Below are positions 23,757 to 38,705 of a stretch of 64,000 nucleotides of DNA, in pieces; position 1 is the stretch's first letter, and every line of letters begins with the position of its first letter. Below the pieces are notes generated by a model that did not search any database, was not told the origin of the DNA, and was given only the letters and a program-made list of their open reading frames with translations. The translations under genes were made by a program, and so were the position numbers. Source of the stretch: Ferrovibrio sp. MS7 (GTDB taxonomy: Bacteria > Pseudomonadota > Alphaproteobacteria > Ferrovibrionales > Ferrovibrionaceae); NCBI RefSeq assembly GCF_038404985.1, contig NZ_JBBKBA010000002.1:806001-870000 (forward strand), given 5' to 3'.

Positions 23757-24920
23757 TTACAGGCTCATCCGGCCGTTTTTCAGCAGGCTGCGGGCAATGA
23801 TCATGCGGTGGATGTCGGAGGCGCCGTCGAAGATGCGATAGACGCGAGCATCGCGGTAAAGCTGCTCCAGCGGCATTTCGCGGCAATAGCCCATGCCGCC
23901 GAAAATCTGCACCGCCTTGTCAGCAACACGGCCCAGCATCTCGGAAGCGTAATACTTCACCATCGAGACCTTCTCGCGCGGGTCGCGGTCCTGGTCGGTC
24001 TCCCAGGCGGCATTCAGCACCATCATGCGGGTGGCGAAAATCTCGGTGGCCATGTCGGCCAGCATCGCCTGCACCATCTGGAACTCGCCCAGCGTCTGGC
24101 CGAACTGCTTGCGCTCGTTGGCATAGTCGATGCACTTCTGCATCAGCTTGCGCGCCATGCCGACCGAACGGCCGCCAACCATGCCAAGCCGCACCCGGTT
24201 GATGGTGGAAAGCGCCTGGAACAGACCGGTGCCTTCGGCGCCCAGCATCTGCGATTTCGGCAACCGCACATCCTCGAAGATCAGTTCGGAATGATTGGTG
24301 CCGCGCAGGCCCATCATGTATTGCGTGCGGCCGACGGTGAAGCCCGGCGTGCCCTTGTCGACCAGGAAGGCGCTGATGCCCTTGGCGCCCTTCGACGGAT
24401 CGGTGACAGCGGTGATAATGAAGGCATGCGCCACATCGGCATCGCTGATGAAATGCTTCGAGCCGTTGAGGATGAAGTCGTCGCCATCGCGCTTGGCGGC
24501 GGTCTTGATGCCGGCGGCATCCGAGCCGGCATTCGGCTCGGTCATGCCCAGCGCGACATTGATCTCGCCCCGAACCGCCGGGAGCAGATACTTCTCGCGC
24601 TGCTCGCCAACGCAATTCACCAGCGAACCGGGAATGGCGCCGAAGGCGCGGCGCACCAGGGCATCCTTGGTGAAGCCGAACTCCTCTTCGCAGAGGCACA
24701 TATCTACGGTGCTGAGGCCGCCGCCGCCCACATCCTCGGGCATGCCCATGGCGAACAGGCCCATTTCCTTGGCCTTGTTGCGCAGCTCCTGCGCCAATTC
24801 CGGGCGCACAACCTGGATTTCCTCGACCTCGGCTTCGTGCGGCGCCAGTTCCTTCTGGATGAAGCGGCGCAGCGAGTCGAGCACCATCTGGGTTTCGGCG
24901 GGAATGGAGAAATCGATCAC
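23757..24920 (-). CDS. Acyl-CoA dehydrogenase
   Basis: 387 residues from a GTG at 24920 with AAGGAT 8 bases upstream; longer frames upstream overlap the hydratase gene. The three ACAD domains are recognisable (GMTEPNAGSDAAG flavin-contact loop; QIFGGMGYCREMPLEQLYRDAR). The catalytic-base position, usually Glu in YEGT, is Asp365 in FDGAS, as in the ACAD10/11-like branch. It introduces an alpha-beta double bond into an acyl-CoA and passes electrons to ETF. Operon with hydratase upstream and CoA-transferase downstream. Confidence 0.92.
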   Translation of the reverse strand: MIDFSIPAETQMVLDSLRRFIQKELAPHEAEVEEIQVVRPELAQELRNKAKEMGLFAMGMPEDVGGGGLSTVDMCLCEEEFGFTKDALVRRAFGAIPGSLVNCVGEQREKYLLPAVRGEINVALGMTEPNAGSDAAGIKTAAKRDGDDFILNGSKHFISDADVAHAFIITAVTDPSKGAKGISAFLVDKGTPGFTVGRTQYMMGLRGTNHSELIFEDVRLPKSQMLGAEGTGLFQALSTINRVRLGMVGGRSVGMARKLMQKCIDYANERKQFGQTLGEFQMVQAMLADMATEIFATRMMVLNAAWETDQDRDPREKVSMVKYYASEMLGRVADKAVQIFGGMGYCREMPLEQLYRDARVYRIFDGASDIHRMIIARSLLKNGRMSL

Positions 24921-24958
24921 GGGACTATCCTTGGATTGAGAGAAACAGCGGCAGCCTG

Positions 24959-25768
24959 TCAGGCGCCGAACACCTTGCGGTCGAGCTTGTCGCGCCACTG
25001 GGCCGGACGCTTCTCGGCGAAGGCGGTGACGCCTTCCTTGAAATCGCCGGTCTGCGACAACGCCTCGCTGAGATCCAGGCTGCGCTGGATCGCTTCGGCT
25101 TCCGGCAAGTCGACGGCGTTCTGCAACGCGGTCTTGCAGGCGAAGGCGGCCTGGGCCGGGCCTTCCGCCAGGCGGGTGGCAAGCTCGCGGGCCAGTGCAA
25201 GCGCGCCGCCCTTGGGCGCGATGCGGTTGATCAGGCCCCAAGCCAGCGCCGTCTCGGCATCGATCATGTCGCCCAGCAGCATCATTTCCTTGGCGCGCCC
25301 CATGCCGATGCGGTTGGTGACGCGCACGGTGCCGCCGCTGCCCGGAAAACCGCCGAGCTTCACTTCCGGCAAGCCCATGCGGGCATTGGCGGAGGCCACG
25401 ATCAGGTCACAGCCGCTGGCCAGTTCCAGGCCGCCGCCCAGCGCCAGGCCCTCGATGGCAGCAACCGTCGGCTTGGGGAAATGCGCCACCTGACCATAGG
25501 TGTCGTTTTCCTTGCCCAATTTTTGCGAAACAATGCCCTGCTCAGCGATCAGGCGCGGAAATTCCTTGATATCGGAACCGGCGCAGAAGGCGCGGTCGCC
25601 CTCGCCGCACAGCACCAGGGCGCCGATGCCCGGATCGGCGGCCAGCTCGTTGAGCGCGGCGCTCATCTGCCGGGTCAGGCCCAGCGTCACCACATTCATC
25701 GGCGGATTGACGAGAAACAGCGTCGCCACCCGGCCATGGGTTTCGACGCGGACTTTTTGATCACTCAT
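24959..25768 (-). CDS. Enoyl-CoA hydratase/isomerase
   Basis: 269 residues, crotonase fold. Oxyanion-hole segments FCAGSDI and GGGLELASGCD are present, and both catalytic glutamates are kept: Glu115 and Glu135 (GLPEVKLGGFPG). So it should be an active hydratase on 2-enoyl-CoA. First gene of the operon hydratase, acyl-CoA dehydrogenase, CoA-transferase, 2-oxoacid oxidoreductase. GGAGG lies upstream of the ATG. It diverges from the DUF1330 gene across a shared operator-like repeat. Confidence 0.93.
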   Translation of the reverse strand: MSDQKVRVETHGRVATLFLVNPPMNVVTLGLTRQMSAALNELAADPGIGALVLCGEGDRAFCAGSDIKEFPRLIAEQGIVSQKLGKENDTYGQVAHFPKPTVAAIEGLALGGGLELASGCDLIVASANARMGLPEVKLGGFPGSGGTVRVTNRIGMGRAKEMMLLGDMIDAETALAWGLINRIAPKGGALALARELATRLAEGPAQAAFACKTALQNAVDLPEAEAIQRSLDLSEALSQTGDFKEGVTAFAEKRPAQWRDKLDRKVFGA

Positions 25769-25793: not shown

Positions 25794-25821
25794 ATTGACG
25801 TATACTGACTTGCACGTCAAT
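25794..25821. promoter_or_regulatory. Inverted repeat in divergent promoter (site C of shared motif)
   Basis: ATTGACGT and ACGTCAAT form perfect 8-bp arms 12 bases apart, between the hydratase operon and the DUF1330/DapA-like genes. The core TACTGACTTGCACGTCAA (25803-25820) matches 15 of 18 bases of the element upstream of the MaoC operon at 36351-36368. Likely a repressor operator, TetR-type by size. Confidence 0.6.
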
Positions 25822-25926
25822 CAGTTTTTTGCCACCTTGTGTCTAGCCGGGGTCCGGCCCCGGCCTTTGCCGGCTCTGCCCGCCGCACCGGTTCTGTCCG
25901 ATGTTCTGCAAAAGGAAACGTTGAGA

Positions 25927-26214
25927 ATGGCCGCAATCGTGGTTGCCAAGGTCCGGGTCACCGATCCGGAGAAATACGAATCGTATAAACCGCTCGCCAA
26001 GGTGGCGATCGAGGCTTTCGGCGGGCGCTACCTGGTGCGCGGCGCCGACCCGGTGATGATCGAGGGCGAAGCCAGCCCGGTGCGCTATGTCGTGGTCGAG
26101 TTCGACTCGGTCGAAACCGTGAAGCGTTTCTATGACTCGCCGGAATACCGCAAGGCGCGCGACGCCCGCGCCGGCGCTGCCATCGCCGAAATAACTGCCC
26201 TGCAGGGCATCTGA
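25927..26214 (+). CDS. DUF1330 domain protein
   Basis: 95 residues from the ATG at 25927, preceded by AAAGGAA. The dimeric alpha-beta barrel fold of DUF1330 is indicated by VAKVRVTDPEKYESY, the IEGE turn and VVVEFDSVETVKRFYDSPEY. No reaction is established for the family. It begins a plus-strand pair with the DapA-like gene, 11 bases apart, divergent from the acyl-CoA operon. Confidence 0.85.
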   Translation: MAAIVVAKVRVTDPEKYESYKPLAKVAIEAFGGRYLVRGADPVMIEGEASPVRYVVVEFDSVETVKRFYDSPEYRKARDARAGAAIAEITALQGI

Positions 26215-26225
26215 AGGAGAAAACC

Positions 26226-27155
26226 ATGCCCCGGCTGAAATATGACTGCTCTGGCGTCATTCCCGCCTGCCTGCTGCCGCTGCACGATGATCTGAGCATC
26301 GACGAGAAGAACTACCGCAAGCATATCCGCGAAGTCGGCTCGACGCGCGGCGTCGCCGCGCTGACCGTGAACGGCCATGCCTCCGAAGTATCGTCCTGCA
26401 CCTTCGAGGAGCAGGAAAAGCTGCTGGATCTGGCGCTGGCGGAAGTCGGCGACCGCGTGCCGCTGGTGAACGGCATCTATGCCGAAAGCGGCATGGAAGC
26501 CGTGCGCCTGGCGCGCATGGCCGATGCCAAGGGCGCTTCCGCGCTGCTGGTGTTCCCGCCGAATGTGTTCATGCTCGGCTCGCGCCCGGAGATGGTGGTG
26601 GATCACTACCGCCGCATCGCCGATGCCACCGACCTGCCGCTGATCATCTTCCAGTTCCCGGTCAGCCTGCCGGTGACCTACAGCCACGACGTGCTGCTGC
26701 GGCTGATCCAGGAAATCCCCAGCATCAAGGCCATGAAGGATGCCTGCGGCGATCCGGCGCGGCATGAGATGACGGTGCGGGCACTGCAATCCGATAGCCG
26801 CCCATTCCATGTGCTGACCACCCACAGCGCCTGGCTGCTCTCCTCCCTGGTGGTGGGCTGCAACGGCCTGCTCTCGGGTGCCGGCAGCACCATCGCCGAT
26901 CTGCAGGTGGAGTTGTTCGAGGCGGTGCGCGGCAACGACCTGGCCAAGGCCAAGGCGGTGGCGGCCCGCATCTACCACACCACCCATGCCTTCTACGGCC
27001 CGCCGGCCGTGGACATGCATAACCGCATGAAAGAGGCCCAGGTGATCCTCGGTCGCTTGCCTTCCGCTGCGGTACGTCCGCCGCTGCAGAAGCTCGGTGC
27101 CGCCGAGATAGACCGCATCCGCCAGCACCTCAAGGCTGCCGGCATCGAACGCTGA
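26226..27155 (+). CDS. DapA-family aldolase/hydratase, not a true dihydrodipicolinate synthase
   Basis: 309 residues, TIM barrel. The Schiff-base lysine is Lys171 (IKAMKDACGD). Two hallmarks of real DapA differ: the TTGE pyruvate-binding motif reads HASE (51-54), and the catalytic-relay Tyr in YNVP is Phe142 (FQFP). So it probably keeps pyruvate- or oxoacid-dependent Schiff-base chemistry on another substrate. GAAGGAG precedes the ATG. A strong UUCG hairpin follows. Aldol cleavage of a catabolic intermediate is inference. Confidence 0.88.
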   Translation: MPRLKYDCSGVIPACLLPLHDDLSIDEKNYRKHIREVGSTRGVAALTVNGHASEVSSCTFEEQEKLLDLALAEVGDRVPLVNGIYAESGMEAVRLARMADAKGASALLVFPPNVFMLGSRPEMVVDHYRRIADATDLPLIIFQFPVSLPVTYSHDVLLRLIQEIPSIKAMKDACGDPARHEMTVRALQSDSRPFHVLTTHSAWLLSSLVVGCNGLLSGAGSTIADLQVELFEAVRGNDLAKAKAVAARIYHTTHAFYGPPAVDMHNRMKEAQVILGRLPSAAVRPPLQKLGAAEIDRIRQHLKAAGIER

Positions 27156-27162
27156 TCCGGGC

Positions 27163-27192
27163 CACCGGAGGCGGCTTCGGCTGCCTCCGGTG
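27163..27192 (+). terminator. Hairpin with UUCG tetraloop after the DapA-like gene
   Basis: A 13-pair stem (CACCGGAGGCGGC / GCTGCCTCCGGTG, one G-U) closes on TTCG with a C-G closing pair, an exceptionally stable tetraloop. It starts 8 bases after the stop. No U-run follows, so it may act as a Rho-dependent stop or 3-prime end protector. Confidence 0.65.
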
Positions 27193-27206
27193 ATTGCACC
27201 TGGCGG

Positions 27207-27240
27207 CGAAAACTGCGATTATTTTGTGAAACGGTTTTCG
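27207..27240. promoter_or_regulatory. Inverted repeat upstream of the TetR gene
   Basis: CGAAAAC and GTTTTCG form perfect 7-bp arms 20 bases apart, ending 12 bases before the TetR start. The inner GAAACGGTTTTC is also near-palindromic. The region between is AT-rich and could hold the promoter; autoregulation by the TetR protein would fit. Confidence 0.4.
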
Positions 27241-27251
27241 AGAGTTGCCCT

Positions 27252-27905
27252 GTGCAAACTGACAATAACAGTGCCGGCCAGACCATGCGCAACCAGATCA
27301 AAATGGTGGCCGAGGAATTGCTGGTCAAGCATGGCTATCGCGGCCTCAGCTTCCGCCAGATCGCCGAAATCCTGAACACCACCCGCGCCAACCTGCATTA
27401 CCATTTCGGCAGCAAGGAAGGCTTGGTGGAGGAAGTGCTGGAGGATTACTCCACCAGCACCATGAACCGCTACCGCGACGTGCTGACCGACACCACCACG
27501 ACGCTGCGGACCAAGATCGATGCCATCATCAAGCTCAACCGCGAGCGCTACCAGAAATACAATCCCGATGGCGACCACGGCCATCCGTGGAGCCTGATGA
27601 CCCGGCTGCGCTCCGACAGCGATGCGCTGAACGACAAGATGCGCAACCGGCTGCAGGGCGTGATGCGCGAATTCGAGATGCTGGTTGCCGTCGGCGTGCG
27701 CGCCGCGGTGCAGTCCGGCGAATTGCAGCCCGATACGCCGCAGCAGCAGATCGTGATTCAGCTTGTCACCATCATCCACTATGCCGGCCTGGTGACGCGC
27801 GACAACGGCAAGTTCGGCCGTCTCACCGACCTGTGGGATGCGACGCTGACCGTGATCGAGCGCGCCTACAGCCACAAGCCAGCGGCCAAGAGCCGCAAGG
27901 GCTGA
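27252..27905 (+). CDS. TetR-family transcriptional regulator
   Basis: 217 residues from a GTG at 27252; the ATG at 27285 is an alternative. N-terminal helix-turn-helix GLSFRQIAEILNTTRANLHYHFGSKEGL (shown in two parts by family: SFRQIAEIL and ANLHYHFGSKEGL). The remaining helices form the ligand domain. It lies in the middle of the acyl-CoA gene group, convergent with the acyl-CoA ligase gene (3-base gap). It is the best local candidate to bind the three related operator-like sites at 25.8, 34.2 and 36.35 kb. Confidence 0.9.
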   Translation: MQTDNNSAGQTMRNQIKMVAEELLVKHGYRGLSFRQIAEILNTTRANLHYHFGSKEGLVEEVLEDYSTSTMNRYRDVLTDTTTTLRTKIDAIIKLNRERYQKYNPDGDHGHPWSLMTRLRSDSDALNDKMRNRLQGVMREFEMLVAVGVRAAVQSGELQPDTPQQQIVIQLVTIIHYAGLVTRDNGKFGRLTDLWDATLTVIERAYSHKPAAKSRKG

Positions 27906-27908
27906 GCC

Positions 27909-29552
27909 TTACGCCTTAGCCATCAGGCTGCGCAGCTCAATGCCCGCCGCTTTGCGATCCCAGGTATCGGCGGTGATGCCGGCGGCACGCAGTTGCACCT
28001 TCATGATCTTCTGCGTCGGCGTGCGCGGCATCGCCGGCAGGATCTCGATATAGCGCGGCACCATGTGGTGCGGCAGGCACTGCGCCAGGAAAGCCAGCAA
28101 TTCCAGCGGCTGTAATGCTGCGCCGGGACGCAACACCACGCAGAGCTTCACATCGTCGTCGGAAACGAATTCGGAGGGCACGCCGATTGCGGCGCTTTCC
28201 AGCACCGCCGCATGGGCATTGGCCGCCACTTCGATATCGTAGGATGAGATATTCTCCGCCCGGCGCCGGATGCGGTCGCCCAGCCGGTCGGCGAAATAGA
28301 CCCAGCCATCGGCATCGATATAGCCGCTGTCGCCGCTATGGAACCAGAGATTCCGCCAGGCCTTCAGCGTCGCCTGCGGGTTGGCGTAATAGCCCGGGCT
28401 GACGATCCAGGGCAGCTTCGGCCGCAGCACGAATTCGCCCACTTGGCCCGGCGGCAGCGGCTGGTCGGTCTCCGGATCGACAACCTGGAATTCGTACCAT
28501 TCCTCACGGATGCGGCCGCAGGAGCCTGGCCGCAAGGCTTCGTCATAGGGATGCCAGCAGGGAATATTCACTTCCGTCATGCCCCAGGTCTCGATCCCCT
28601 TCACGCCGAAACGGCGCTCGAAATCCACCGCGATATGTTTCGGGAAGGGCGAGGTGCCGATGCGGGTGAGCCGCGTGTCGGCATCATCAGGCCGCTCGGG
28701 CTCGGCATAGATCATTTCCAGCAGCGGGCCATGGCCGATGCTCACCGTGGCGCCGCACTCGCGTACCCGGCGCAGCCAGTCGGCGGCCGAGAATCGCAGA
28801 TCCAGACTTACTTTTGCGCCAGTAAGGATCGCGGCATAGATGGCGCAGAAACGCGGCGACATGTGAAACAGCGGATGGGCGCAATAGTAGATGTCGTCGC
28901 CCGTCACCCGCATGCCTTCCGCGCTCTGGCGCGCGGTAAGGAAGGCCTGGGCATGGGTCACCATCACCCCCTTGGAGGGGCCGGTGGTGCCGGACGTGAA
29001 CAGGATCGAGCAGAGATCGCTATGGGCGGCGCCGGGCGGCTGCCAATCGGTCGGACGCGGCTCTCTCAAGGGCGTAAAAGCCGTGACCGGCTTGCCGCCG
29101 ATTTCCGCCGGCAGCGGTTCGGCAGCGGAATGGGCCAGGATACGGGCAAGGCGCGGCATCGCGGCCGCGCTCGCCGCCAGCACCGGCAGCAAACCCGCCT
29201 CGGCGATCATCACCTCGGCCTCGACCAAGTTGACGGCATGCTCCAGCGGCTTGCCGCTGAAGGCGGGATTGATCGGGGCGTCGATGGCACCAAGCAGATC
29301 GATACCGAACCACAGCAGCACCGCTTGGTCGGAATTGCCGGCAAAGGTCGCAACCCGGTCACCGGCCCGGATGCCGAGGCGATGCAGATACCAGGCGATA
29401 TCCAGAGCCCGCGTGTAGGCGTCAACGAAACTCAGGGCGGGCTGTCCCGCGAAAGCGAGAAATGGCGCGCCGGGGGTTTGCCCGGCACGCCATTCCAAAA
29501 CCCGGTCCAGGGACCATTCCTGTGGCGCAAAATCGAGATAGCTGGCTTTCAC
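27909..29552 (-). CDS. AMP-forming acyl-CoA synthetase (CaiC-like)
   Basis: 547 residues. The adenylate-forming P-loop FTSGTTGPSKGVMVTH and the later GMTE and hinge region YFADRLGDRIRRRAENIS are present. The C-terminal catalytic Lys region is TPTQKIMKVQLR. Family members activate carboxylic acids to acyl-CoA, and the closest type is crotonobetaine/carnitine-CoA ligase-like. It is the last gene of the Liv-type importer operon, about 50 bases after the binding-protein gene, so it probably activates the imported acid. Confidence 0.92.
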   Translation of the reverse strand: MKASYLDFAPQEWSLDRVLEWRAGQTPGAPFLAFAGQPALSFVDAYTRALDIAWYLHRLGIRAGDRVATFAGNSDQAVLLWFGIDLLGAIDAPINPAFSGKPLEHAVNLVEAEVMIAEAGLLPVLAASAAAMPRLARILAHSAAEPLPAEIGGKPVTAFTPLREPRPTDWQPPGAAHSDLCSILFTSGTTGPSKGVMVTHAQAFLTARQSAEGMRVTGDDIYYCAHPLFHMSPRFCAIYAAILTGAKVSLDLRFSAADWLRRVRECGATVSIGHGPLLEMIYAEPERPDDADTRLTRIGTSPFPKHIAVDFERRFGVKGIETWGMTEVNIPCWHPYDEALRPGSCGRIREEWYEFQVVDPETDQPLPPGQVGEFVLRPKLPWIVSPGYYANPQATLKAWRNLWFHSGDSGYIDADGWVYFADRLGDRIRRRAENISSYDIEVAANAHAAVLESAAIGVPSEFVSDDDVKLCVVLRPGAALQPLELLAFLAQCLPHHMVPRYIEILPAMPRTPTQKIMKVQLRAAGITADTWDRKAAGIELRSLMAKA

Positions 29553-29605
29553 CGAAACCCCGCGACGCTAGCGCCCTCAGTAAAGTCCCTGGACCCGTAC
29601 TGGCA

Positions 29606-30748
29606 TTACTTGACGGTGACGAACTTGCCGCCTCGGATTTCCACGGTGATCAGCGTGTCGGCGAACACGCCTTCATGCTGGTCCTTGGAATAGCAGAGGT
29701 TGCCGTCCAGATAGGTGCCGGTGTAGTTGCAGATGGTTTCCAGCGCATCGCGGATCTTCGGACCCGTCGGCTTGCCATCGACGCGACGCAGCGCCTCGGC
29801 GGCGGCGAGGAAGCCGGTGGAACCGATCAGCTCGGCATAGCCCTTCGGGGTCTTGCCGCCATCGACGATCAGCTTGCCCAGTTCCTTCTGGCGCTCGGAC
29901 GGATCGTCCCAGTTGCCGATGGACACGATCTGGATGCCTTCGCCGGCCGGGCCGGCGGCATCGAGGAAGGGCCGCTGGTTGAGGCTGCCGGTGCCGACGA
30001 TCGGCGCCTTGATGCCGACCTGGCGGGCGGCACGCATGAAGGCGGCGCCCAAAGCCGGGGCCGAAGTCTTCAGCAGCACCACATCCGGGTTGGAATTGCG
30101 GATATTGGTAGCAGCGGCAGTGAGGTCGATGGCGTTGAGCGGCGCGGCCACGGCGGCGGCGATCTCGACGTTGCGCTCCTTCGACAGCGCGGCGGCACGC
30201 TTCATGCCGGCCTCACCATAGGCATCTTCCTGGTACATGATGGCGATGCGCTTGTGGCCGGGCTTGAACACGCCGCGATCCAGGATGGCATCGACGATCA
30301 GGGTGTCGCTTGGCGCGGTGCGGAAGATCCACGGCCAGAAGCTGTTTTCCTTCGAGGTCGCCGGGATGGTGCCGACCGGCGCCAGCACCGGAACGCTGTT
30401 GGCCATGGCGATCGGCATCAGCGCCAGGGTGCCGGTGCCGATGGTGGAGCCGAGGATGGCGACCACGCCGTCCTGGCGGATCAGCTTGGTGGCGCAGCGC
30501 GCGGCTTCGGTCGGGTTGGTCTGGTCATCGCAGAGAATCAGGTCGATCTGCGCGCCCTTGATGCCGCCTTCCTTGTTCACCTTGTTGGTGAGGATTTCAA
30601 CGATATCGCGTTCCGGCACGCCAAACGGCGCCGCCGGGCCGCTGAGGCTGTAGATGCCGCCGATCTTGATCTTGTCTTGCGCCAACGCGCCGCCGGCCAC
30701 AAGGCCGAAAGCGGCGATGCCCGCCAGCAGGGTGGTGATACGCTTCAT
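29606..30748 (-). CDS. Liv-type ABC importer binding protein
   Basis: 380 residues from the ATG at 30748 with AGGAGAGG upstream. Signal peptide MKRITTLLAGIAAFGLVAGGALAQ in the mature frame (cleaved after ALA). The body is a periplasmic type I binding protein of the branched-chain amino acid family (IKIGGIYSLSGPAAPFG). With an acyl-CoA ligase beside it, an aromatic or fatty carboxylate is a more likely ligand than an amino acid, but that is inference. Confidence 0.9.
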   Translation of the reverse strand: MKRITTLLAGIAAFGLVAGGALAQDKIKIGGIYSLSGPAAPFGVPERDIVEILTNKVNKEGGIKGAQIDLILCDDQTNPTEAARCATKLIRQDGVVAILGSTIGTGTLALMPIAMANSVPVLAPVGTIPATSKENSFWPWIFRTAPSDTLIVDAILDRGVFKPGHKRIAIMYQEDAYGEAGMKRAAALSKERNVEIAAAVAAPLNAIDLTAAATNIRNSNPDVVLLKTSAPALGAAFMRAARQVGIKAPIVGTGSLNQRPFLDAAGPAGEGIQIVSIGNWDDPSERQKELGKLIVDGGKTPKGYAELIGSTGFLAAAEALRRVDGKPTGPKIRDALETICNYTGTYLDGNLCYSKDQHEGVFADTLITVEIRGGKFVTVK

Positions 30749-30785
30749 ATTCCTCTCCTTCTCGGTTTTCTTGAATGCGTGTGAA

Positions 30786-31544
30786 TTATCCGTTCGCCGT
30801 GCCCAGGAAGGCTTCGGCGAGTTCCTCCGGATTGCGTAGATCCTCCTTGCCGCCCTGGCGCACGAGATGGCCGTGCGACAGCACCACGTAGCGTTCGGCA
30901 ACGCGGGCAGCGAAGGGGACATTCTGTTCGGCAAGCAGCAGCGCCAGGCCGCTGTTCTTCAGGATGTTGAAGGCATTCTCCAGAATGTCGAACACCATCG
31001 GGGCAAGGCCCTGGGTCGGCTCGTCCAGCAGCAGCACCTGCGGCTTGCGCCCCAGCGCCATGCCGATGGCGAGCATCTGCTGTTCACCGCCGCTGAGCAC
31101 ACCGGCCATGGCATCGGCGCGCTGCTTCAGGATCGGGAACAGGCTGAGGATCAGTTCGCGCTGTGCCCCGCGGTCCTGCACCGGCAGCAGCCGCAGGCCG
31201 ACATCGATATTCTCTTCCACCGACATGGTGGGGAAGATGTTGCCGCGCCGCTCCGGCACGAAGGCGATGCCATGGGAAGCACGCTTATGCGCGCTCATGC
31301 CGCCGATCTCGGTACCACGTACCTTCACATCGCCGGCACCGCTGATGATGCCGGAAACCGCACCGAGCATGCTGCTCTTGCCGGCGCCGTTCGGCCCCAG
31401 CACGGCCAGCATCTCGCCCGGATAGAGGTCGAAATCCACCTCTTCCACCACGGTGATGCGGCTGTAGCGCGCCGTGATGCCGCGGCAGGTCATGACCGGA
31501 GCGGCCTGCGCCTGGCCGGTCGCAATAGTCGCCGTCGCGTTCAT
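30786..31544 (-). CDS. Liv-type ABC importer ATPase (LivF type)
   Basis: 252 residues. Walker A GPNGAGKSS, signature LSGGEQQMLAIGMAL and Walker B VLLLDEPTQGLAP are intact. A short Ala/Thr-rich N terminus precedes the domain. The ATG overlaps the LivG-type stop (ATGA). Dimerises with the LivG-type ATPase to drive the importer. Confidence 0.93.
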   Translation of the reverse strand: MNATATIATGQAQAAPVMTCRGITARYSRITVVEEVDFDLYPGEMLAVLGPNGAGKSSMLGAVSGIISGAGDVKVRGTEIGGMSAHKRASHGIAFVPERRGNIFPTMSVEENIDVGLRLLPVQDRGAQRELILSLFPILKQRADAMAGVLSGGEQQMLAIGMALGRKPQVLLLDEPTQGLAPMVFDILENAFNILKNSGLALLLAEQNVPFAARVAERYVVLSHGHLVRQGGKEDLRNPEELAEAFLGTANG

Positions 31545-32302
31545 CGGCCGGTGCTCCCCAGATAGATGTCGATGAAGGCCTTGTCGCGGGCGATCACATC
31601 GGGGGCGCCCTGGATCAGCATGCCGCCCTCCTTGAGCACCAGCACGTCCTCGGCCAGTTCGCGGATGAGGTTGAAGTTATGCTCCACCAGCAGCACGCCC
31701 ACGCCGCGCTCGGCCAGGCGGCGGACTTCGGCACCCAGCATGCGCTGTTCGTCGCGGGCGAGGCCGGCGGCCGGTTCATCCAGCAGGATGTATTTCGGGT
31801 CGTTGGCCATGGCGCGCGCCACTTCCACCAGGCGCACACGGCCCATCGGCAGCTCGCTCATCTGCAAGCTGCGGAATTCCGCCAGCTTGAGATCGGCGAG
31901 GATCTCGTCGCAGCGGGCGCGGAAGCCCGCTTCCTCACGCGAAGCCGAAGGCAGCCGCAGGATGGCGGAGACAAAGCCGGCACGCTTGACCGGATAGAAG
32001 CCGCACATCACTGCCTCCTCCACCGTCACCTTCGGATCGAAGCGCGGCGTCTGGAAGGTGCGGGCGAGACCACGGCCGATGCGGGCGAAGGGCGGCAGGT
32101 TGTCCACCACCTCGTCATCCACCACGATGGTGCCGGTGGTCGGCTTCACCATGCCGGTGATGGCATTGAACAATGTGCTCTTGCCGGAGCCATTCGGCCC
32201 GATCACCGCCAGGATCTTGCCACGCTGCACCGTGGTCGAGACATCCTTGAGGGCGGTGACGCCGCCAAACTGCACCGTCACGTTCTTGGCTTGAATGGTC
32301 AT
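31541..32302 (-). CDS. Liv-type ABC importer ATPase (LivG type)
   Basis: 253 residues from the ATG at 32302, which overlaps the LivM-type stop (ATGA). Walker A GPNGSGKST and Walker B YILLDEPAAGL are intact. The signature segment reads LPMGRVRLVEVARAM, so the usual LSGGQ core is replaced by LPMGR, typical of a divergent LivG group. Longer reading frames upstream are shadow. Confidence 0.9.
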   Translation of the reverse strand: MTIQAKNVTVQFGGVTALKDVSTTVQRGKILAVIGPNGSGKSTLFNAITGMVKPTTGTIVVDDEVVDNLPPFARIGRGLARTFQTPRFDPKVTVEEAVMCGFYPVKRAGFVSAILRLPSASREEAGFRARCDEILADLKLAEFRSLQMSELPMGRVRLVEVARAMANDPKYILLDEPAAGLARDEQRMLGAEVRRLAERGVGVLLVEHNFNLIRELAEDVLVLKEGGMLIQGAPDVIARDKAFIDIYLGSTGR

Positions 32303-33267
32303 GCGGCAACTCCACGCACCGGTTTGCCGGCGCGGGCGCGGCTGGCAAACAGCTTCTTCCAGTTGGTGCCCAGCACGCCGTTCGGCGCGACCAGCAGCAC
32401 CAGGATCAGCACCGAGCCGAAGATCATGCCCTGGGTTTCCGCCGCCGGCAGATACAGCGTGATCAGCGTGAGGAACGCCGCACCGAGGATCGGGCCGAGG
32501 AAAGTGGAGGCGCCGCCGATCACCGCCATCAGCAGGATCTTGATCGAGACATGCATGGTCAGCGAATCCGGGCCCATATAGGTGAGGTGATGGGCATAGA
32601 GCCAACCAGCGAGGCCGGCCACCGAGGCCGAGAGCGCGAAGTAGAGCGCCAGCAAAGCCGGCACGTTGACGCCATCGGCGGTGGCACGCAGCGGATCATG
32701 CTGCGCGGTGCGCACAGCGCGGCCGATGGCCGAGCTGGTCAGGTTGGCATACAGCACCAGCACCAGCGCCACGACCAGCCAGCTCAGCACATGCATCGAC
32801 TGGATGGTGGGAGCGAACCACAGCGGCGGAATGCCGGAGAGGCCGATATAGCCGCCGGTGAAGCTGCCGCCCTCGCGGATCGCCAGTTCCAGCACCAGGC
32901 AGAGCAGCAGCGTCGCAATCGACAGCGGCAGCGGCGACAGCCGGGTGATGGCGCGGGCCATCGGATAGGCCAGCAGCATCGGCAGGATCAGCGCCAGCAC
33001 CAGGCCGACCAGCGGCGACATGCCATAGCGAGTGGTGACGATGCTGGTGGCGAAGGCGCCGATGGAGCCGAAGGCAGCCGGCGCCATGGAGAGGATGCCG
33101 GCCTGGCCATAGGCCATGCCGACCGACAGCGAGAGCAGCGAGAAGATCGCCACCATCACGGAATTATCGAGCCAGAACGGGCTGCCGATGATCAGCGGCG
33201 TCAGCGCCGCGATGATAGCCAGGATGATCAGCGCCGGCTTGCAGCGTTGCAGCAGGGTGCCTTGCAT
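32299..33267 (-). CDS. Liv-type ABC importer permease (LivM type)
   Basis: 322 residues, about nine to ten membrane segments. SVGMAYGQAGILSMAPAAFG near residue 50 is the LivM-type GQxSLG region, and GGASTFLGPILGA lies near the end. ATG at 33267 shares a base with the LivH-type stop (TGATG). Charged C terminus. Confidence 0.9.
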   Translation of the reverse strand: MQGTLLQRCKPALIILAIIAALTPLIIGSPFWLDNSVMVAIFSLLSLSVGMAYGQAGILSMAPAAFGSIGAFATSIVTTRYGMSPLVGLVLALILPMLLAYPMARAITRLSPLPLSIATLLLCLVLELAIREGGSFTGGYIGLSGIPPLWFAPTIQSMHVLSWLVVALVLVLYANLTSSAIGRAVRTAQHDPLRATADGVNVPALLALYFALSASVAGLAGWLYAHHLTYMGPDSLTMHVSIKILLMAVIGGASTFLGPILGAAFLTLITLYLPAAETQGMIFGSVLILVLLVAPNGVLGTNWKKLFASRARAGKPVRGVAA

Positions 33268-34121
33268 CACACGCGCCCTCCCGTGGCGGCAATCTGGTTC
33301 ATCCGGCCGAGCGACAGGATGACGAAGATGAAGACCAGCGGGATGGCATTGGCCCAGGCGCCGGGCAGATAGCCGGCACTGACCGCCTGCACCACGCCGA
33401 TGATCAGGCCACCGGCAAAACCGCGCAGCGGGCTGCGCATGCCGAAGATGATCGCCGAGCCGAAGCCCCAGATGGTGAGGTTGAACGCCGTGCTGTAATC
33501 GGCACCGGTGGTGTAGAGGATCAGCACGCCGGCGGTGCCGGCCAGCAGGCCGCCCAGCAGGTAGGTGGAGAACCAGATCAGCCGCACCGGAATGCCGTTC
33601 AGCGCGGCACCGACCGGATTGACGGCGCTGGCGCGCATGGAGCGGCCAAACGGCGTTTTCTGCAGCACCACGAACAGGCAAGCCAGGATGGCAACGCAAA
33701 CCGTGATGTTGATGCCCATCTGCGGGCTGATGCGGATGCCGGCGATGTTCCAGAAGGTCTCGAACGGCTGCCGGATCATCGGGCTGGTGCCGAATAACGT
33801 CAGGATGAAGGATTCAAGGAAGGTGGCGAGGCCGAAGGTGCCAAGCACCGCGATCACATGATCCACCGCGCCGGGGCGGTTGAGCCGCATCGAGATGACA
33901 CCGACCACGCCGGAAGCCAACACGGCGGAGGCAATCGCCAACACCACGCCGGCGGGGCCGCCAGTGACATACATTATCGCCGCCGCCAGCACGGCATAGG
34001 CGCCAAGCGCCACGTCCACCGAACCGGTGGTGACGAAAAGCAGGCTGACCGGAAAGGCCAGCAGGCCGTACGTGACCCCGAGCAAGGCGCCACGCAAAAG
34101 ATACTCCGCAAGCTCGAACAC
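33267..34121 (-). CDS. Liv-type ABC importer permease (LivH type)
   Basis: 284 residues, about eight membrane segments, with the LivH hallmark LLFVTTGSVDVALGAY near residue 30. It is the first gene of the operon LivH, LivM, LivG, LivF, binding protein, acyl-CoA ligase, and lies just downstream of a 30-base palindrome in its promoter region. GGGAGGG precedes the ATG. Confidence 0.9.
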   Translation of the reverse strand: MFELAEYLLRGALLGVTYGLLAFPVSLLFVTTGSVDVALGAYAVLAAAIMYVTGGPAGVVLAIASAVLASGVVGVISMRLNRPGAVDHVIAVLGTFGLATFLESFILTLFGTSPMIRQPFETFWNIAGIRISPQMGINITVCVAILACLFVVLQKTPFGRSMRASAVNPVGAALNGIPVRLIWFSTYLLGGLLAGTAGVLILYTTGADYSTAFNLTIWGFGSAIIFGMRSPLRGFAGGLIIGVVQAVSAGYLPGAWANAIPLVFIFVILSLGRMNQIAATGGRV

Positions 34122-34170
34122 TGTGTTCCCTCCCTGCAGCCGTTGTTCCAGGACCGGCTACGTCTTTTTT

Positions 34171-34200
34171 ATTTATACTTACTCGTAAGTAAGTATAAAT
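34171..34200. promoter_or_regulatory. 30-base near-perfect palindrome (site A), liv operon operator
   Basis: ATTTATACTTACT and AGTAAGTATAAAT are perfect 13-bp arms around CGTA. It lies 50 bases before the LivH-type start, just downstream of a TTGACA at 34211-34216 on the minus strand. The inner ACTTAC-TC-GTAAGT is itself palindromic and the 18-base core shares 12 positions with the site upstream of the MaoC operon. Strong repressor-operator candidate. Confidence 0.75.
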
Positions 34201-34254
34201 AGTCATAGCCTGTCAAGACCCCAATTCCGCTGCCGCGGTATCGGGGCCGGTTTT

Positions 34255-35028
34255 TCAGTTCATCCACAATCCGCCGGTGACGTTGATCGACTGGCCGGTC
34301 ATGTAGGACGCCTGTTCCGAAACCAGGAACGCCACCACATTGGCGATGTCCTGCGGTTGTCCTAACCGGCCAAGCGGAATCAGATGCACGCGCTCCGCCG
34401 CGGGCGGCAGGCCCTTGGCAAGCGCTTCTGCATCGGCCTGCTCGCGCATCCGGGTATTGGTGATGGTGCCGGGGCAAACGGCATTCACGCGAATTCCGGA
34501 TTTAGCGAGATCGAGGGCCATGGATTGTGTCATGCCGATCAGCGCGAATTTCGACGCGCAATAGGCCAGCGACATCGGCCGCCCGGATTTGCCGAACCAT
34601 GAAGCAATATTGATGATTCGGCCGCCACCGCTTTCGATCATCATCGGCACCATGGTGTGGCAGCAATTAAAGGTCCCGCGCACATTGACCTGCATGGTGT
34701 AATCAAAATCTTCCGGCGTGCCGTCGATGATCGAAGCAACCTGCCCTATACCGGCACCATTGATCAAGATGCGGGGCGCCGCGCCGAATTCATTGCGCAG
34801 TTTAGCGGCAGCAGCACGCACTGCCGCCAAATCACTCACATCAACCTTGCCGACACTAACTGTTGCACCCTGCCCGCTTAACTCGCCGGCGAGCGCCTCA
34901 AGGCCGGTTGCATCGACATCCCACAATGCCACCTTGCAGCCTTCCTTGGCCAAACGCTGCGCGATGCTCTTGCCGATACCGCTGGCGGCACCCGTTACAA
35001 CCGCCACATCACCTGAATACTCATACAT
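34255..35028 (-). CDS. Short-chain dehydrogenase/reductase (SDR)
   Basis: 257 residues, classical SDR. NAD(P) motif TGAASGIG, NGAG, the catalytic Ser in INIAS and the YCASK catalytic pair are all present, and Asp in LWDVD after strand 2 suggests NAD. Typical of 3-hydroxyacyl-CoA or cyclic-alcohol dehydrogenases. Last gene of the operon MaoC hydratase, FabG-like SDR, SDR. Confidence 0.9.
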   Translation of the reverse strand: MYEYSGDVAVVTGAASGIGKSIAQRLAKEGCKVALWDVDATGLEALAGELSGQGATVSVGKVDVSDLAAVRAAAAKLRNEFGAAPRILINGAGIGQVASIIDGTPEDFDYTMQVNVRGTFNCCHTMVPMMIESGGGRIINIASWFGKSGRPMSLAYCASKFALIGMTQSMALDLAKSGIRVNAVCPGTITNTRMREQADAEALAKGLPPAAERVHLIPLGRLGQPQDIANVVAFLVSEQASYMTGQSINVTGGLWMN

Positions 35029-35054
35029 CGTGCTGTTCCTGGAAATTACGCCGT

Positions 35055-35861
35055 TTACGTACGGCGGATATGGATGCCGCCATCGACATGGAACGCGTGG
35101 CCGGTGCTGTAGGGCAACAAGCCCGCCGCGAGCACACCAACCGTGCGGCCGATATCATCGGCTTCGCCCCAGCGCGCCAGCGGAAAACCACGGCCCTTCA
35201 CCCAGCCATCGTACTTCTCGAATACATCGGCGGTCATGTCGGTGCGGATGATGCCGGGGCGGATTTCATGCACCGCAATGCCGTGTTCCGCCAACCGCAA
35301 CGCAAACAGCGTCGACATCATGGCGATGCCGGATTTCGAGATGCAGTAATCGGCCTGCGCGGCCGTGGCGATCACCGCATTGCCCGACGATATGAAGATG
35401 ATCGAGCGGCTGGGCCGCGTCGCGTCACCCGCCGGCTCTGCGATCATGCGTTTGGCGATGCGCTGCGTGAGGAAGAACGAGCCGCGCAGATTGACATCGA
35501 TCAGGCGGTCGAAACTTTCGACCGGGATCTCCAGCATGTCGCCGCGATACTGGGTCTGCACGCCGGCATTGTTGACCAGGCAGCTTAAAGGTCCGAAAGC
35601 GCCACAGGCTTCGTCCACCATGCGCTGATGCTGCGCCAGGTCAGCGACATTGCCCGTCACGAAAGCGGCCTTGCCGCCGCGCTCGGCGATGCCGGCCAGC
35701 GTTTCCTCCGCCGAGGCATCACGTTCGAGGTCGTTCACCACCACGTCGAAGCCCTGCTCGGCCAGCGCATAGGCGATGGCGCGGCCGATGCCGCGGCGGC
35801 CACCGGTGACAAAAGCCGCGCGGCGCTGAGTGGTGCCGAGCTTCCCGGATTCGCCGCTCAC
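35055..35861 (-). CDS. SDR, 3-oxoacyl-ACP/CoA reductase-like (FabG-like)
   Basis: 268 residues. TGGRRGIGRAIA nucleotide-binding motif, NNAG, catalytic Ser in FISSGNA and the YCISK pair. The GGRRGIG and VNDLERD pattern resembles the FabG-like 3-ketoacyl reductase group. The start overlaps the MaoC-type stop (ATGA). A MaoC hydratase followed by two SDRs suggests hydration of an enoyl-CoA and oxidation of the 3-hydroxy product. Confidence 0.9.
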   Translation of the reverse strand: MSGESGKLGTTQRRAAFVTGGRRGIGRAIAYALAEQGFDVVVNDLERDASAEETLAGIAERGGKAAFVTGNVADLAQHQRMVDEACGAFGPLSCLVNNAGVQTQYRGDMLEIPVESFDRLIDVNLRGSFFLTQRIAKRMIAEPAGDATRPSRSIIFISSGNAVIATAAQADYCISKSGIAMMSTLFALRLAEHGIAVHEIRPGIIRTDMTADVFEKYDGWVKGRGFPLARWGEADDIGRTVGVLAAGLLPYSTGHAFHVDGGIHIRRT

Positions 35862-36313
35862 TTGGCAACTCCCTGCTGCGGCACCCAGCGCATGATATGC
35901 ACCGCGCTGGAAACCACGGTGCCGCTCTGGTTCGTAACCGTCACGTCAGAGAGGGTGCGAAAACGCTCGGCCTCGATCTTGGCGATGGTGTAGGTGATGG
36001 TCACAGTGTCGCCGAAGAATACCGGCGCCATGAAGCGCACGCGGTCGTAGCCCTGCGAAACCGGCGTGAAACCGACATATTTATGCACATGCGGGGTGAA
36101 CATCAGTGTCGAGGCGGTGGACATGAAGCCCATCGAGAGTACGCCATGGGCGATGCGGTGGCCGAAGGCCGACTTCTTCATAAACTCTTCATTGCAGTGC
36201 ACATCCGACAGATCGCCGGTGATGCCGGCGAAAAGGTAGACGTCGCTTTCGCTGACAGTCTTGGAAAATTGCACCTTGTCGCCAATGGCGACATGGAAAT
36301 CCGCCTCTTGCAT
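35858..36313 (-). CDS. MaoC-like (R)-specific enoyl-CoA hydratase
   Basis: 151 residues, hot-dog fold. The R-hydratase 2 motif is clear: AGITGDLSDVHCNEEFM with catalytic Asp and His, then IAHGVLSMGF. It hydrates 2-enoyl-CoA to (R)-3-hydroxyacyl-CoA. First gene of its operon, directly behind a good sigma-70-type promoter at 36340-36368 with an operator-like element inside. Confidence 0.92.
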   Translation of the reverse strand: MQEADFHVAIGDKVQFSKTVSESDVYLFAGITGDLSDVHCNEEFMKKSAFGHRIAHGVLSMGFMSTASTLMFTPHVHKYVGFTPVSQGYDRVRFMAPVFFGDTVTITYTIAKIEAERFRTLSDVTVTNQSGTVVSSAVHIMRWVPQQGVAK

Positions 36314-36339
36314 TGCTTCCTCCCAATGAGACGGTGGCC

Positions 36340-36368
36340 CTTATAAAGCTTACTTACATGCAGGTCAA
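36340..36368 (-). promoter_or_regulatory. Sigma-70 promoter of the MaoC operon with embedded operator (site B)
   Basis: On the minus strand TTGACC and TATAAG are separated by exactly 17 bases. The spacer region contains TACTTACATGCAGGTCAA (36351-36368, plus strand), related to sites at 25.8 and 34.2 kb. A repressor bound here would cover the -35 and spacer. The GlcD-like gene diverges 35 bases away, so it may share control. Confidence 0.75.
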
Positions 36369-36402: not shown

Positions 36403-37815
36403 ATGGCCAACAACGCACGCCCCCCGATAGACCCGGCAGCCCTGGTGCGGCTGTCCGAAACACTGCAAACGCGCTTTGCCAACCGCTTCAGCACGGCAGA
36501 AGCGGTATGCCGGCAACATGCCAGCCAGCTCACCTGGATGCCGAGCCAGCCGCCAGATGCCGTGGTCTTCGCCGAAAGCACCGAGGAAGTGGCGGAAATC
36601 GTGCGGCTTTGCGCCGCTGATGCGGTGCCGGTGATCGCTTTCGGCTCCGGCTCGTCCTTCGAGGGCCATGTCAATGCGCCGCATGGCGGCATCTGCATCG
36701 ACTTGAGCGGCATGAAGCGGATCATCGCGGTGAATGCCGAGGATCTCGATTGCGTGGTGCAACCAGGCGTCACCCGCGTCACCCTCAATGAATATCTACG
36801 CGATACGGGGTTGTTCTTTCCCATCGATCCCGGCGCCGATGCCTCGCTCGGCGGCATGGCGGCAACGCGCGCCAGCGGCACCAACGCGGTGCGCTATGGC
36901 ACCATGAAGGACAATGTGATCGCGCTGACCGCCGTGCTGCCCAATGGCGATATCGTGCGCACGGCACGGCGCGCGCGCAAAAGCTCGGCCGGCTACGACC
37001 TCACGCGGCTTTTTGTCGGTTCGGAAGGCACGCTCGGCATCATCACCGAACTGGTGCTGCGGCTCTCGCCGATTCCGGAAGCGGTGGCGGCGGCGATCTG
37101 CCCCTTCCCCAGCGTACGCGCCGCCTGCGACGCGGTAATCGCCACCATCCAGAGTGCCCTGCCGGTGGCACGGATCGAATTGCTCGACGAAGTGACCGTG
37201 GGTGCGGTGAACCGCCATTCCGGCCTCTCGCTGCAGGAATCGCCGCTGCTGCTGCTGGAATTCCACGGCACACCCGATGGCGTCGCCGAACAGTCGCGCC
37301 GCTTCGGTGAAATCGCCGAAATGTTTGAGGGCGGACCCTTTGAATGGTCGGATAAACCGGAGGAGCGCTCGCGGTTGTGGAAGGCACGCCATGATGCCTA
37401 TTGGGCCTGCGTCGGCCTGCGACCCGGCGCGCGGCCGATTCCCACCGATGTCTGCGTACCGATCTCGCGGCTAGCCGATTGCGTCGAGGCAACCAAGCAG
37501 GACATCCAGGCACTGGGCCTGATCGCGCCGGTGGTCGGCCATGTCGGCGATGGCAACTTCCATGTCCAGCCGATGGTGGACATGGACAACCCGGCCGAAG
37601 TCGAGACGGTAATGCAGTTCGTGCGCCGCATGGTGGAGCGCGCCATAGCCATGGACGGCACCTGCACCGGCGAGCATGGCATCGGCCAGGAAAAGCAGAA
37701 ATACCTGCCGCTGGAACACGGCGAGGAAACCCTGGCGCTGATGCGCCTGATCAAGCGTTCCGTGGACCCGCAGAACATCATGAATCCCGGTAAGATGCTG
37801 GAGTATTACGCATGA
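36403..37815 (+). CDS. FAD-linked oxidase, D-lactate/glycolate dehydrogenase-like (GlcD/Dld type)
   Basis: 470 residues. Residues about 45-225 form the PCMH FAD-binding domain (VIAFGSGSSFEGHV; LFVGSEGTLGIITELV). The C-terminal domain has GHVGDGNFHVQP with the metal/substrate His and TCTGEHGIGQEK. Members oxidise D-2-hydroxyacids, passing electrons to quinone or cytochrome. GGAGGAG precedes the ATG. The stop overlaps the AroE-like start (ATGA), so a D-2-hydroxyacid may be part of the same pathway. Confidence 0.92.
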   Translation: MANNARPPIDPAALVRLSETLQTRFANRFSTAEAVCRQHASQLTWMPSQPPDAVVFAESTEEVAEIVRLCAADAVPVIAFGSGSSFEGHVNAPHGGICIDLSGMKRIIAVNAEDLDCVVQPGVTRVTLNEYLRDTGLFFPIDPGADASLGGMAATRASGTNAVRYGTMKDNVIALTAVLPNGDIVRTARRARKSSAGYDLTRLFVGSEGTLGIITELVLRLSPIPEAVAAAICPFPSVRAACDAVIATIQSALPVARIELLDEVTVGAVNRHSGLSLQESPLLLLEFHGTPDGVAEQSRRFGEIAEMFEGGPFEWSDKPEERSRLWKARHDAYWACVGLRPGARPIPTDVCVPISRLADCVEATKQDIQALGLIAPVVGHVGDGNFHVQPMVDMDNPAEVETVMQFVRRMVERAIAMDGTCTGEHGIGQEKQKYLPLEHGEETLALMRLIKRSVDPQNIMNPGKMLEYYA

Positions 37816-38705
37816 CCTCTCCCCTCTCCGACACCCTGCTGCATCTGGCGCCGCAGCGCGCCGGCTCGGCCAACTTCGTCGATGGCCGCACGCGGCTTTA
37901 TGGCATCCTCGGCCATCCCATCGCCCAGGCGCGCTCGCCCGAGACCGTGACCTATGAACTGCGCCGGCGCGGCGAGAATGCTATTCTTTTGCCGATCCAT
38001 ATTCAGCCTGAGGATTTCGACGCGGTGTTCCCGCAATTGCTCAAGCTGGTGAACCTGGATGGTCTGGTGGTGACGGTGCCGCACAAGACGCGGATCGCGC
38101 CGCATCTGCGCCATATCGGCCCGATGGCCCGGATCAGCCACAGCATCTCGGTGATCGCCCGCACCAGGGATGACCAGTGGGTCGGCGAGATGTTCGATGG
38201 CGTCGGCTGTGTTGCCGCCATCGAGCGGCGTGGCGTACGCATGCCGGGCAAACGGGTACAGTTGCTGGGTGCCGGCGGCGCCGGTGCCGCCATCGGCGCA
38301 GAGCTGGCGCGCAAGGGCGTAGCTGCCTTGCGCGTTGTCGAGCCGCAGGTGCAGCGTGCCGAGGATCTGGCACGCGGCCTCGCCGCCGCCTATCCAGCGC
38401 TGAATGTCAGCATCGGGCCGTCACGGCTCGACGATATCGACCTGCTGATCAATGCCAGCCCGATCGGCATGCTGGATGAGAATGCCGCGCCGATCGACGT
38501 GACCTCGATCCCGGCCAATGTGGTGGTGATGGATGCGATCATGGACCCGGACCGCACCAAGCTGCTGCGCATCGCGCAAGCCAGCGGCTGTCTCACGGTC
38601 TATGGCCGCGAGATGCTCGATTCGCAGATCGTGCGGGTTTGCGATTTCCTGCTCAGGGCGCGGCAGCACGATGTGAAGGACTTCGTGCTGCACCCCGATA
38701 CTTAA
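37812..38705 (+). CDS. Shikimate dehydrogenase-like protein with altered substrate site
   Basis: 297 residues, AroE fold: substrate domain, then NAD(P) domain with GAGGAGAAIG near 153-162. The catalytic Lys92 (VPHKT) and Asp129 (MFDG) are kept, as is Ser42. But the first Ser of the shikimate-binding SxS is Ala40 and the NT pair that binds the shikimate carboxylate and hydroxyls is replaced (ISHSISV). So it probably reduces or oxidises another cyclic polyol or hydroxyacid. Overlaps the oxidase gene by four bases; hairpin follows. Confidence 0.87.
   Translation: MTSPLSDTLLHLAPQRAGSANFVDGRTRLYGILGHPIAQARSPETVTYELRRRGENAILLPIHIQPEDFDAVFPQLLKLVNLDGLVVTVPHKTRIAPHLRHIGPMARISHSISVIARTRDDQWVGEMFDGVGCVAAIERRGVRMPGKRVQLLGAGGAGAAIGAELARKGVAALRVVEPQVQRAEDLARGLAAAYPALNVSIGPSRLDDIDLLINASPIGMLDENAAPIDVTSIPANVVVMDAIMDPDRTKLLRIAQASGCLTVYGREMLDSQIVRVCDFLLRARQHDVKDFVLHPDT

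Follow-up and report, generated by a model that had tools for sequence, protein, structure and literature searches.

A catabolic gene cluster of about 20 kb in Ferrovibrio sp. MS7 probably encodes an uptake-and-breakdown pathway that is switched as one unit by TetR1, a TetR-family regulator encoded within it. The cluster occupies 19–38 kb of the 64,000-nucleotide stretch analyzed here (contig NZ_JBBKBA010000002.1, positions 806,001 to 870,000; hereafter the window), in a host genome of 4.58 Mb with a G+C content of 63%. Sequence comparison makes it very likely that TetR1 reads all three of the 18-base dyads, operators A, B and C, that flank the operons of this cluster. An earlier reading of the DNA letters alone (the sequence-only reading) had proposed a shared motif at three promoters, the TetR gene at 27252 as its regulator and the 19–38 kb region as one coordinated system. 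It is right on motif, regulator and unit, though the evidence available to it was too thin alone.

The three sequences lie where that reading had placed them, with TACTGACTTGCACGTCAA at 25803, TACTTACATGCAGGTCAA at 36351 and, at 34171–34200, a 30-base palindrome whose perfect 12-base arms flank a 6-base spacer. Its similarities are reproduced as well: A and B agree at 15/18 bases, and the palindrome core (C) shares 12/18 bases with B. The unit kept in the relatives is an 8-2-8 dyad with the consensus TKACTTRC-NN-GYAAGTMA. Gene layout and Pfam assignments agree with a placement of the sites in promoters of coenzyme A (CoA)-metabolism and importer operons, A and B being divergent and C tandem. 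The neighboring start codons are 37 and 103 bases from A, 36 and 35 bases from B and 53 bases from C (a permease gene). A functional unit spanning all 30 bases of the palindrome at C was considered and rejected: two other Ferrovibrio genomes show changes in the outer arms, and the inner dyad alone is present in Ideonella. A second register, 4 bases off, scores at all three sites (25802, 34179 and 36354), which at A takes the form of a weaker dyad shifted to the left (25802–25819). This register may be a by-product of the half-site's own 4-base period (for example, TTACTTAC).

The shared motif is real, as judged by its conservation, but the pairwise match of 15/18 on which it had been based is near chance here. 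Among 20 intergenic regions of the window (2,414 bases, delimited by partly greedy gene calls), 15 pairs of 18-mers from different regions agree at 15/18 positions or more. Two of these pairs are registers of the A–B match, and the other 13 come from four unrelated alignments, which reach 15–16/18. Ten shuffles gave between 0 and 5 pairs at this level (mean of 2.4). We therefore discarded the A–B match as proof, and the case rests on other evidence, namely conservation.

We sought orthologs of TetR1 by peptide patterns in a collection of genome contigs and kept 80 loci, three of which encode close orthologs (90, 89 and 66% identical). Two of them, L040 and L041, are from other Ferrovibrio genomes, and the third, L042, is from an Ideonella metagenome-assembled genome whose TetR is the 66%-identical protein. 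The same cluster surrounds tetR in all three, and it is thereby common to an alphaproteobacterium and a betaproteobacterium (Ideonella). L042 contains 16 of the 18 window genes running from the indolepyruvate:ferredoxin oxidoreductase-type enzyme (IOR) to ShDHN, with their order kept and at 65–82% identity; IOR and GlcD were not found in L042 above 45% identity. In intergenic alignments, the 18 bases of site A are identical in 4/4 clusters within a less conserved surrounding region. The dyad of C is present in 4/4 clusters and that of B in all three whose contig extends to it, as a perfect 8-2-8 palindrome in L042. Several bases of B and C in L042 differ from those of the window with the symmetry kept, as would be expected of a protein-binding dyad. 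The block and all three sites are thus conserved together, in line with the proposal that 19–38 kb is one unit.

The sites are also predicted from one species to the other. With a symmetric matrix built from the three Ideonella sites, the top three ranks in the window are C (24.4 bits), B (23.2 bits) and A (22.3 bits), and ranks 4–6 are overlapping registers of the same three sites. Under this matrix, the maxima of 20 simulated 64-kb sequences averaged 12.7 and never exceeded 16.4. When only Ideonella B and C went into the matrix, C (22.7) and B (22.6) were still the top two, and A went down to 17.2. The sequence-only reading had raised against itself the possibility that the motif is equally common in coding sequence. 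This is not so in the window: its best coding site scores 12.8 (at 28808), compared with 22–24 for the promoters.

At the scale of the whole host genome, exact matches to TACTKACNTGCANGTCAA are A and B only, with none at one mismatch. The pattern TKACTTRCNNGYAAGTMA occurs at four places with ≤2 mismatches, namely B, C (1 mismatch), A (2) and one other, which scores 11.6 with a nine-site matrix. At ≤3 mismatches there are 27 places, among which A, B and C score 23.1–26.9 bits and the next 17.9 under a matrix partly trained on these three sites. Within the 5.1-Mb Ideonella genome, TGACTTRCNNGYAAGTCA occurs at 15 places with ≤3 mismatches, and four of these (A, B, C and one internal to the ligase gene) lie inside 10.6 kb. 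Regulon members outside the cluster are not supported, other host-genome places scoring at most 17.9 in a search that covered places within 3 mismatches of two patterns plus 3-kb loci around most of them, and from which weaker sites may escape. Look-alike dyads of 16.3 and 17.9 bits are found at L181:6359–6376 and L181:12467–12484 (C1, about 1,617,858 and 1,623,966), in two divergent promoters of the host genome's second CoA-catabolism/importer cluster, which has two TetR genes. These may represent a related operator with a different TetR as its reader.

TetR1 matches the Pfam families TetR_N (PF00440; 47.1 bits, cut-off 24) and TetR_C_13 (35.1 bits, cut-off 27). A structure model from an alignment of 48 sequences (44 of 75 distant homologs and four orthologs) has nine helices and a predicted local distance difference test score (pLDDT) of 89.4, and indicates a standard TetR fold; a first model from four sequences was discarded at a pLDDT of 51. 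The best fold match is 3on4_B (Z of 19.5, root-mean-square deviation of 2.8 over 183 residues). The fold search gave general TetR matches and did not indicate a ligand. The helix-turn-helix and recognition helix of TetR1 are identical between Ferrovibrio and Ideonella.

The assignment of the sites to the TetR gene at 27252 is supported by TetR homologs elsewhere that carry the same operator. We applied the nine-site matrix to loci retrieved solely by TetR homology (32–44% identity) and found the site in a Paraburkholderia plasmid, two Mesorhizobium plasmids and G210, G601, G996, G972 and G917. In the Paraburkholderia caribensis plasmid, one dyad precedes a MaoC gene and another separates tetR from a CoA-transferase gene. 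On both Mesorhizobium plasmids, a dyad lies about 110 bases before the tetR match, beside a divergent RidA-family gene; the annotated tetR start of one of them is further upstream and would take in the dyad. The region upstream of tetR in G210 has 20 bases identical to site A (ATACTGACTTGCACGTCAAT). Perfect palindromes are found upstream of a MaoC-like gene in G972 and 33 bases before an ATG in G917. The site of G601 is upstream of a TauD-family open reading frame (ORF) nearly 6 kb from tetR; G996 has its site some 9 kb away from tetR, close to where a binding-protein ORF begins. G831 and G922 lack a site at the tetR locus but have one (19.0 and 19.8 bits) about 70 bases upstream of the DHDPS match, which lies elsewhere in each genome. 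In five genomes that are not among the TetR1 matches of the corresponding search, the DHDPS loci gave nothing above 10.5 bits. The P. caribensis plasmid also groups genes for MaoC, a 39%-identical TetR, a CoA-transferase, an AroE-like protein (35%, annotated ThiF) and a DHDPS-family protein (L155:13301–19377), perhaps a cousin pathway.

Among homologs with a recognition helix of the type (T/V/I)T(R/T)(A/T)N, the locus holds a site scoring 17 bits or more in 8/10, compared with 1/80 others (Fisher 5e-9), and a site within 1.5 kb of the tetR match is found for 6/10 and 0/80, respectively. The ten were drawn from searches of the phylum, the Ideonella family, the class and a plasmid collection; the 80 others are 77 further pattern-search loci and three additional ones, the three training orthologs and the window's own gene being excluded.

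Several points weigh against TetR1 as the reader of these sites, or lessen the evidence for it. The window, L040, L041 and L042 carry one shared cluster, and their sites are not independent origins. The score of A falls when Ideonella A is left out of the matrix, and it therefore leans on its own ortholog. With ≤3 mismatches allowed, places do not outnumber those of the reversed-pattern control in the host genome (27 against 35) or in Ideonella (15 against 15). A consensus scan detected no sigma-70-like promoter at A, B or C, and overlap of the sites with promoters is assumed. Of the ten helix-type homologs, two show no site in the 19.5-kb locus of their tetR, and two others have it >5 kb from tetR; the DHDPS/tetR gap of G996 and the DHDPS locus of G972 also have no site. 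The helix type was defined after the sequences had been seen and coincides with the ten closest homologs, some of which are related to each other: the two Mesorhizobium plasmids are closely related, and G996, G831 and G922 belong to one genus.

If TetR1 were a mere neighbor, the sites would be read by another regulator, either the second TetR of the window (TetR2, at about 48.6 kb) or an unlinked one. The host genome offers 39 TetR_N matches, and the L181 cluster has one TetR with a different helix (GVTKPALYYYVTNKQ) beside its weaker look-alike dyads, which suggests that related operators may have other readers. TetR2, which we rejected as a candidate, has another helix (GVTKAALYRYISSKE) and no homolog at E 1e-3 in the eight stretches retrieved from the three related clusters. 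The site accompanies TetR1-type proteins into other gene neighborhoods. We consider a different reader quite improbable. Resemblance by chance between AT-rich promoter stretches would account for the A–B match taken alone, which is near that level, but conservation across two classes, the cross-species prediction and the homolog test all contradict it, and we give this explanation practically no weight.

Assuming that TetR1 is the reader, it could still be an activator, a dual regulator or a repressor that needs its ligand as co-repressor, which differs from simple repression only in sign. Promoter hexamers cannot be placed at the sites, so that site position is no proof of repression, and the better fold matches include LuxR and HapR structures, although matches to the TetR family are general. 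Against this stands the location of the sites, 35–103 bases from start codons and in two cases within short divergent gaps. TetR proteins beside short divergent gaps are mostly repressors according to the portion of PMC3511530 used here, in which tetR is itself one of the divergent genes. We regard a sign other than repression as unlikely.

Under repression by TetR1, a dimer would sit on each 18-base dyad and obstruct RNA polymerase at both the enzyme operons and the importer–ligase operon. Since tetR is third in line to the right of operator A, TetR1 would also restrict its own production. Once substrate is imported and activated, a CoA-thioester of the pathway (or the free acid) would bind TetR1 and release it, so that the whole 19–38 kb unit would be derepressed. 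Here we infer the binding itself, repression as its sign, and the ligand and substrate; the simplest reading of the signal, by analogy with MbdR of Azoarcus, would be the CoA-thioester of the imported acid, an acyl-CoA being suggested by the enzymes of the cluster. The layout is that of a local TetR repressor with self-limitation, an ordinary mechanism, and the predicted regulon is a well-supported one of a familiar type.

A candidate fourth site lies within the acyl-CoA ligase gene. Its 12.8 bits in the window are no better than the maxima of simulated sequences (mean of 12.7), and it is therefore a candidate only. Under a matrix built from the sites of the window, the matching place in the relatives reaches 15.1 bits in L040 and L041 and 22.1 bits in L042. 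The site includes conserved codons, ACT and GTA, that are used rarely: across the 16 genes of the cluster that were counted, they account for 6.6% of Thr and 4.3% of Val codons, respectively. For conservation of rare codons, it ranks 2nd of 3,759 seven-codon windows against L040 and 25th of 4,431 against L042, in a heuristic test whose windows overlap. The top rank in both comparisons belongs to the end of livH (33276–33296), where the rare codons GGA and GGG are kept in L040 and L042, probably because the livM ribosome-binding site lies there. Codons 91–97 of the first SDR gene (34738–34758) also show unusual rare-codon conservation against L040.

The closest described parallel we considered is MbdR, which acts on the 3-methylbenzoate mbd cluster of Azoarcus sp. 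CIB and is released by 3-methylbenzoyl-CoA. As presented in the portion of PMC4424350 used here, MbdR, too, is a TetR repressor that acts locally, through several operators of a single cluster; its targets include an ABC importer and CoA-ligase operon, and the mbdR promoter is itself a target. Its operator, ATAC-N10-GTAT, is an 18-base dyad with the spacing of the window's TKAC-N10-GTMA. The outer bases are not matched by A (TGAC-N10-ATCA, or ATAC-N10-GTCA in the other register), B (TTAC-N10-GTCA) or C (ATAC-N10-GTAA). Both systems would have an extra operator in the importer–ligase operon, that of mbd between genes and the window's candidate inside the ligase gene. Unlike the mbd cluster, the window genes between 17.8 and 38.7 kb include no benzoyl-CoA reductase family (Pfam, E up to 1e-5), and no chain named MbdR is among the matches listed for the TetR1 profile (60 of 148 PDB sequences).

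Other TetR systems are more distant. PsrA resembles TetR1 as a TetR repressor of acyl-CoA genes, in its case for fatty-acid degradation; its operator, G/CAAAC-N2-4-GTTTG/C in the part of PMC10304680 used here, is unrelated to the TKACTTRC-like half-sites of the window, and TetR1 matches the Vibrio PsrA NCBIfam model weakly (41.9 bits, cut-off 300). LiuQ and FadP, whose regulons come from comparative genomics, are similar in kind of regulator and of pathway (branched-chain amino-acid and fatty-acid degradation). PMC5343134 describes them as unique to betaproteobacteria. QacR and CprB place two dimers on each operator, as stated in the section of PMC4150764 used here, and the second register 4 bases off would be the corresponding feature of the window. 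None of the titles and abstract openings listed in literature searches concerned this operator or this cluster.

Table 1. Putative operators and predicted genes of the catabolic cluster, in window coordinates
Feature	Positions	Strand	Basis and remarks
Operator A	25806–25823 (dyad)		TGACTTGC-AC-GTCAATCA; divergent promoter region, ECH (−) / DUF1330-DHDPS-tetR (+)
Operator C	34175–34192		ATACTTAC-TC-GTAAGTAA; within the 30-base palindrome, upstream of the importer/acyl-CoA ligase operon (−); tandem promoter
Operator B	36350–36367		TTACTTAC-AT-GCAGGTCA; divergent promoter region, MaoC (−) / GlcD-like oxidase (+)
Candidate intragenic operator	28808–28825		Within the acyl-CoA ligase gene; window score, 12.8 bits
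Indolepyruvate:ferredoxin oxidoreductase-type enzyme (IOR)	19104–22520	−	Pfam, NCBIfam; outermost gene leftward from operator A
Type III (CaiB-like) CoA-transferase	22542–23729	−	Pfam
Acyl-CoA dehydrogenase	23757–24914	−	Pfam; start placed by eye
Enoyl-CoA hydratase/isomerase (ECH)	24959–25768	−	Pfam; gene nearest operator A on the left
DUF1330 protein	25927–26214	+	Pfam; gene nearest operator A on the right
DHDPS-family enzyme	26226–27155	+	Pfam, NCBIfam, PDB look-up
TetR-family regulator TetR1	27252–27905	+	Pfam, fold model; third gene rightward from operator A; recognition helix TTRANLHYHFG
AMP-forming acyl-CoA ligase	27909–29552	−	Pfam, NCBIfam; at the end of the importer operon
Branched-chain-amino-acid-type ABC importer (binding protein, two ATPases, two permeases)	29606–34121	−	Pfam; leftward from operator C
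SDR, SDR and MaoC-like genes	34255–36313	−	Pfam; MaoC, then SDR, SDR leftward from operator B
GlcD-like FAD oxidase, AroE-like protein	36403–38705	+	Pfam; rightward from operator B

Gene content is summarized in Table 1. For the acyl-CoA dehydrogenase, the longest ORF spans 23757–25241, but its Pfam domains start only at residue 115. A comparison of 18 proteins with NCBIfam (best 25 families each; importer ATPases and one permease left out) passed the cut-off only for IOR, the two SDR proteins and a neighboring zinc-type dehydrogenase. Against the PDB, the DHDPS and AroE-like proteins matched broad families only, with no pointer to a substrate. The gap between the DHDPS gene and tetR contains, as read from the sequence, a perfect 10-bp inverted repeat (27163–27192, + strand), a possible hairpin without a T-run; in the other two Ferrovibrio genomes, this gap has an inverted repeat of different sequence.

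The cluster has a scattered distribution. TetR1 is present in 3/18 genomes of the family, its own genome counted. It was not found in a same-species genome (72% completeness), and three same-genus genomes have neither TetR1 nor a DHDPS homolog at 1e-80. No further TetR1 homolog above 45% identity emerged among the matches from 398 phylum genomes, 299 genomes of the Ideonella family and 385 class genomes, drawn evenly and with few candidates scored per genome, or from a plasmid collection. DHDPS homologs at 52–60% identity occur in 28 other Alphaproteobacteria of the 385 searched, and the six loci inspected have other gene sets. The cluster is thus patchy and may move as a unit, and its occurrence in a betaproteobacterium fits such movement.

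These analyses give the catabolic cluster a predicted regulator, operator and set of target promoters. They also make its substrate findable, since a compound that releases TetR1 would probably be the substrate or its CoA ester. More tentatively, and with somewhat more doubt than confidence, we suggest that the helix (T/V/I)T(R/T)(A/T)N(L/I)H(Y/H)HFG marks a class of regulators, for which we found no description, that reads TKACTTRC-NN-GYAAGTMA in seven further lineages before varied uptake and catabolic genes, with Ferrovibrio and Ideonella also using a ligase-internal operator preserved through rare codons. The pairing of helix and operator would be usable for predicting TetR regulons in other Proteobacteria.

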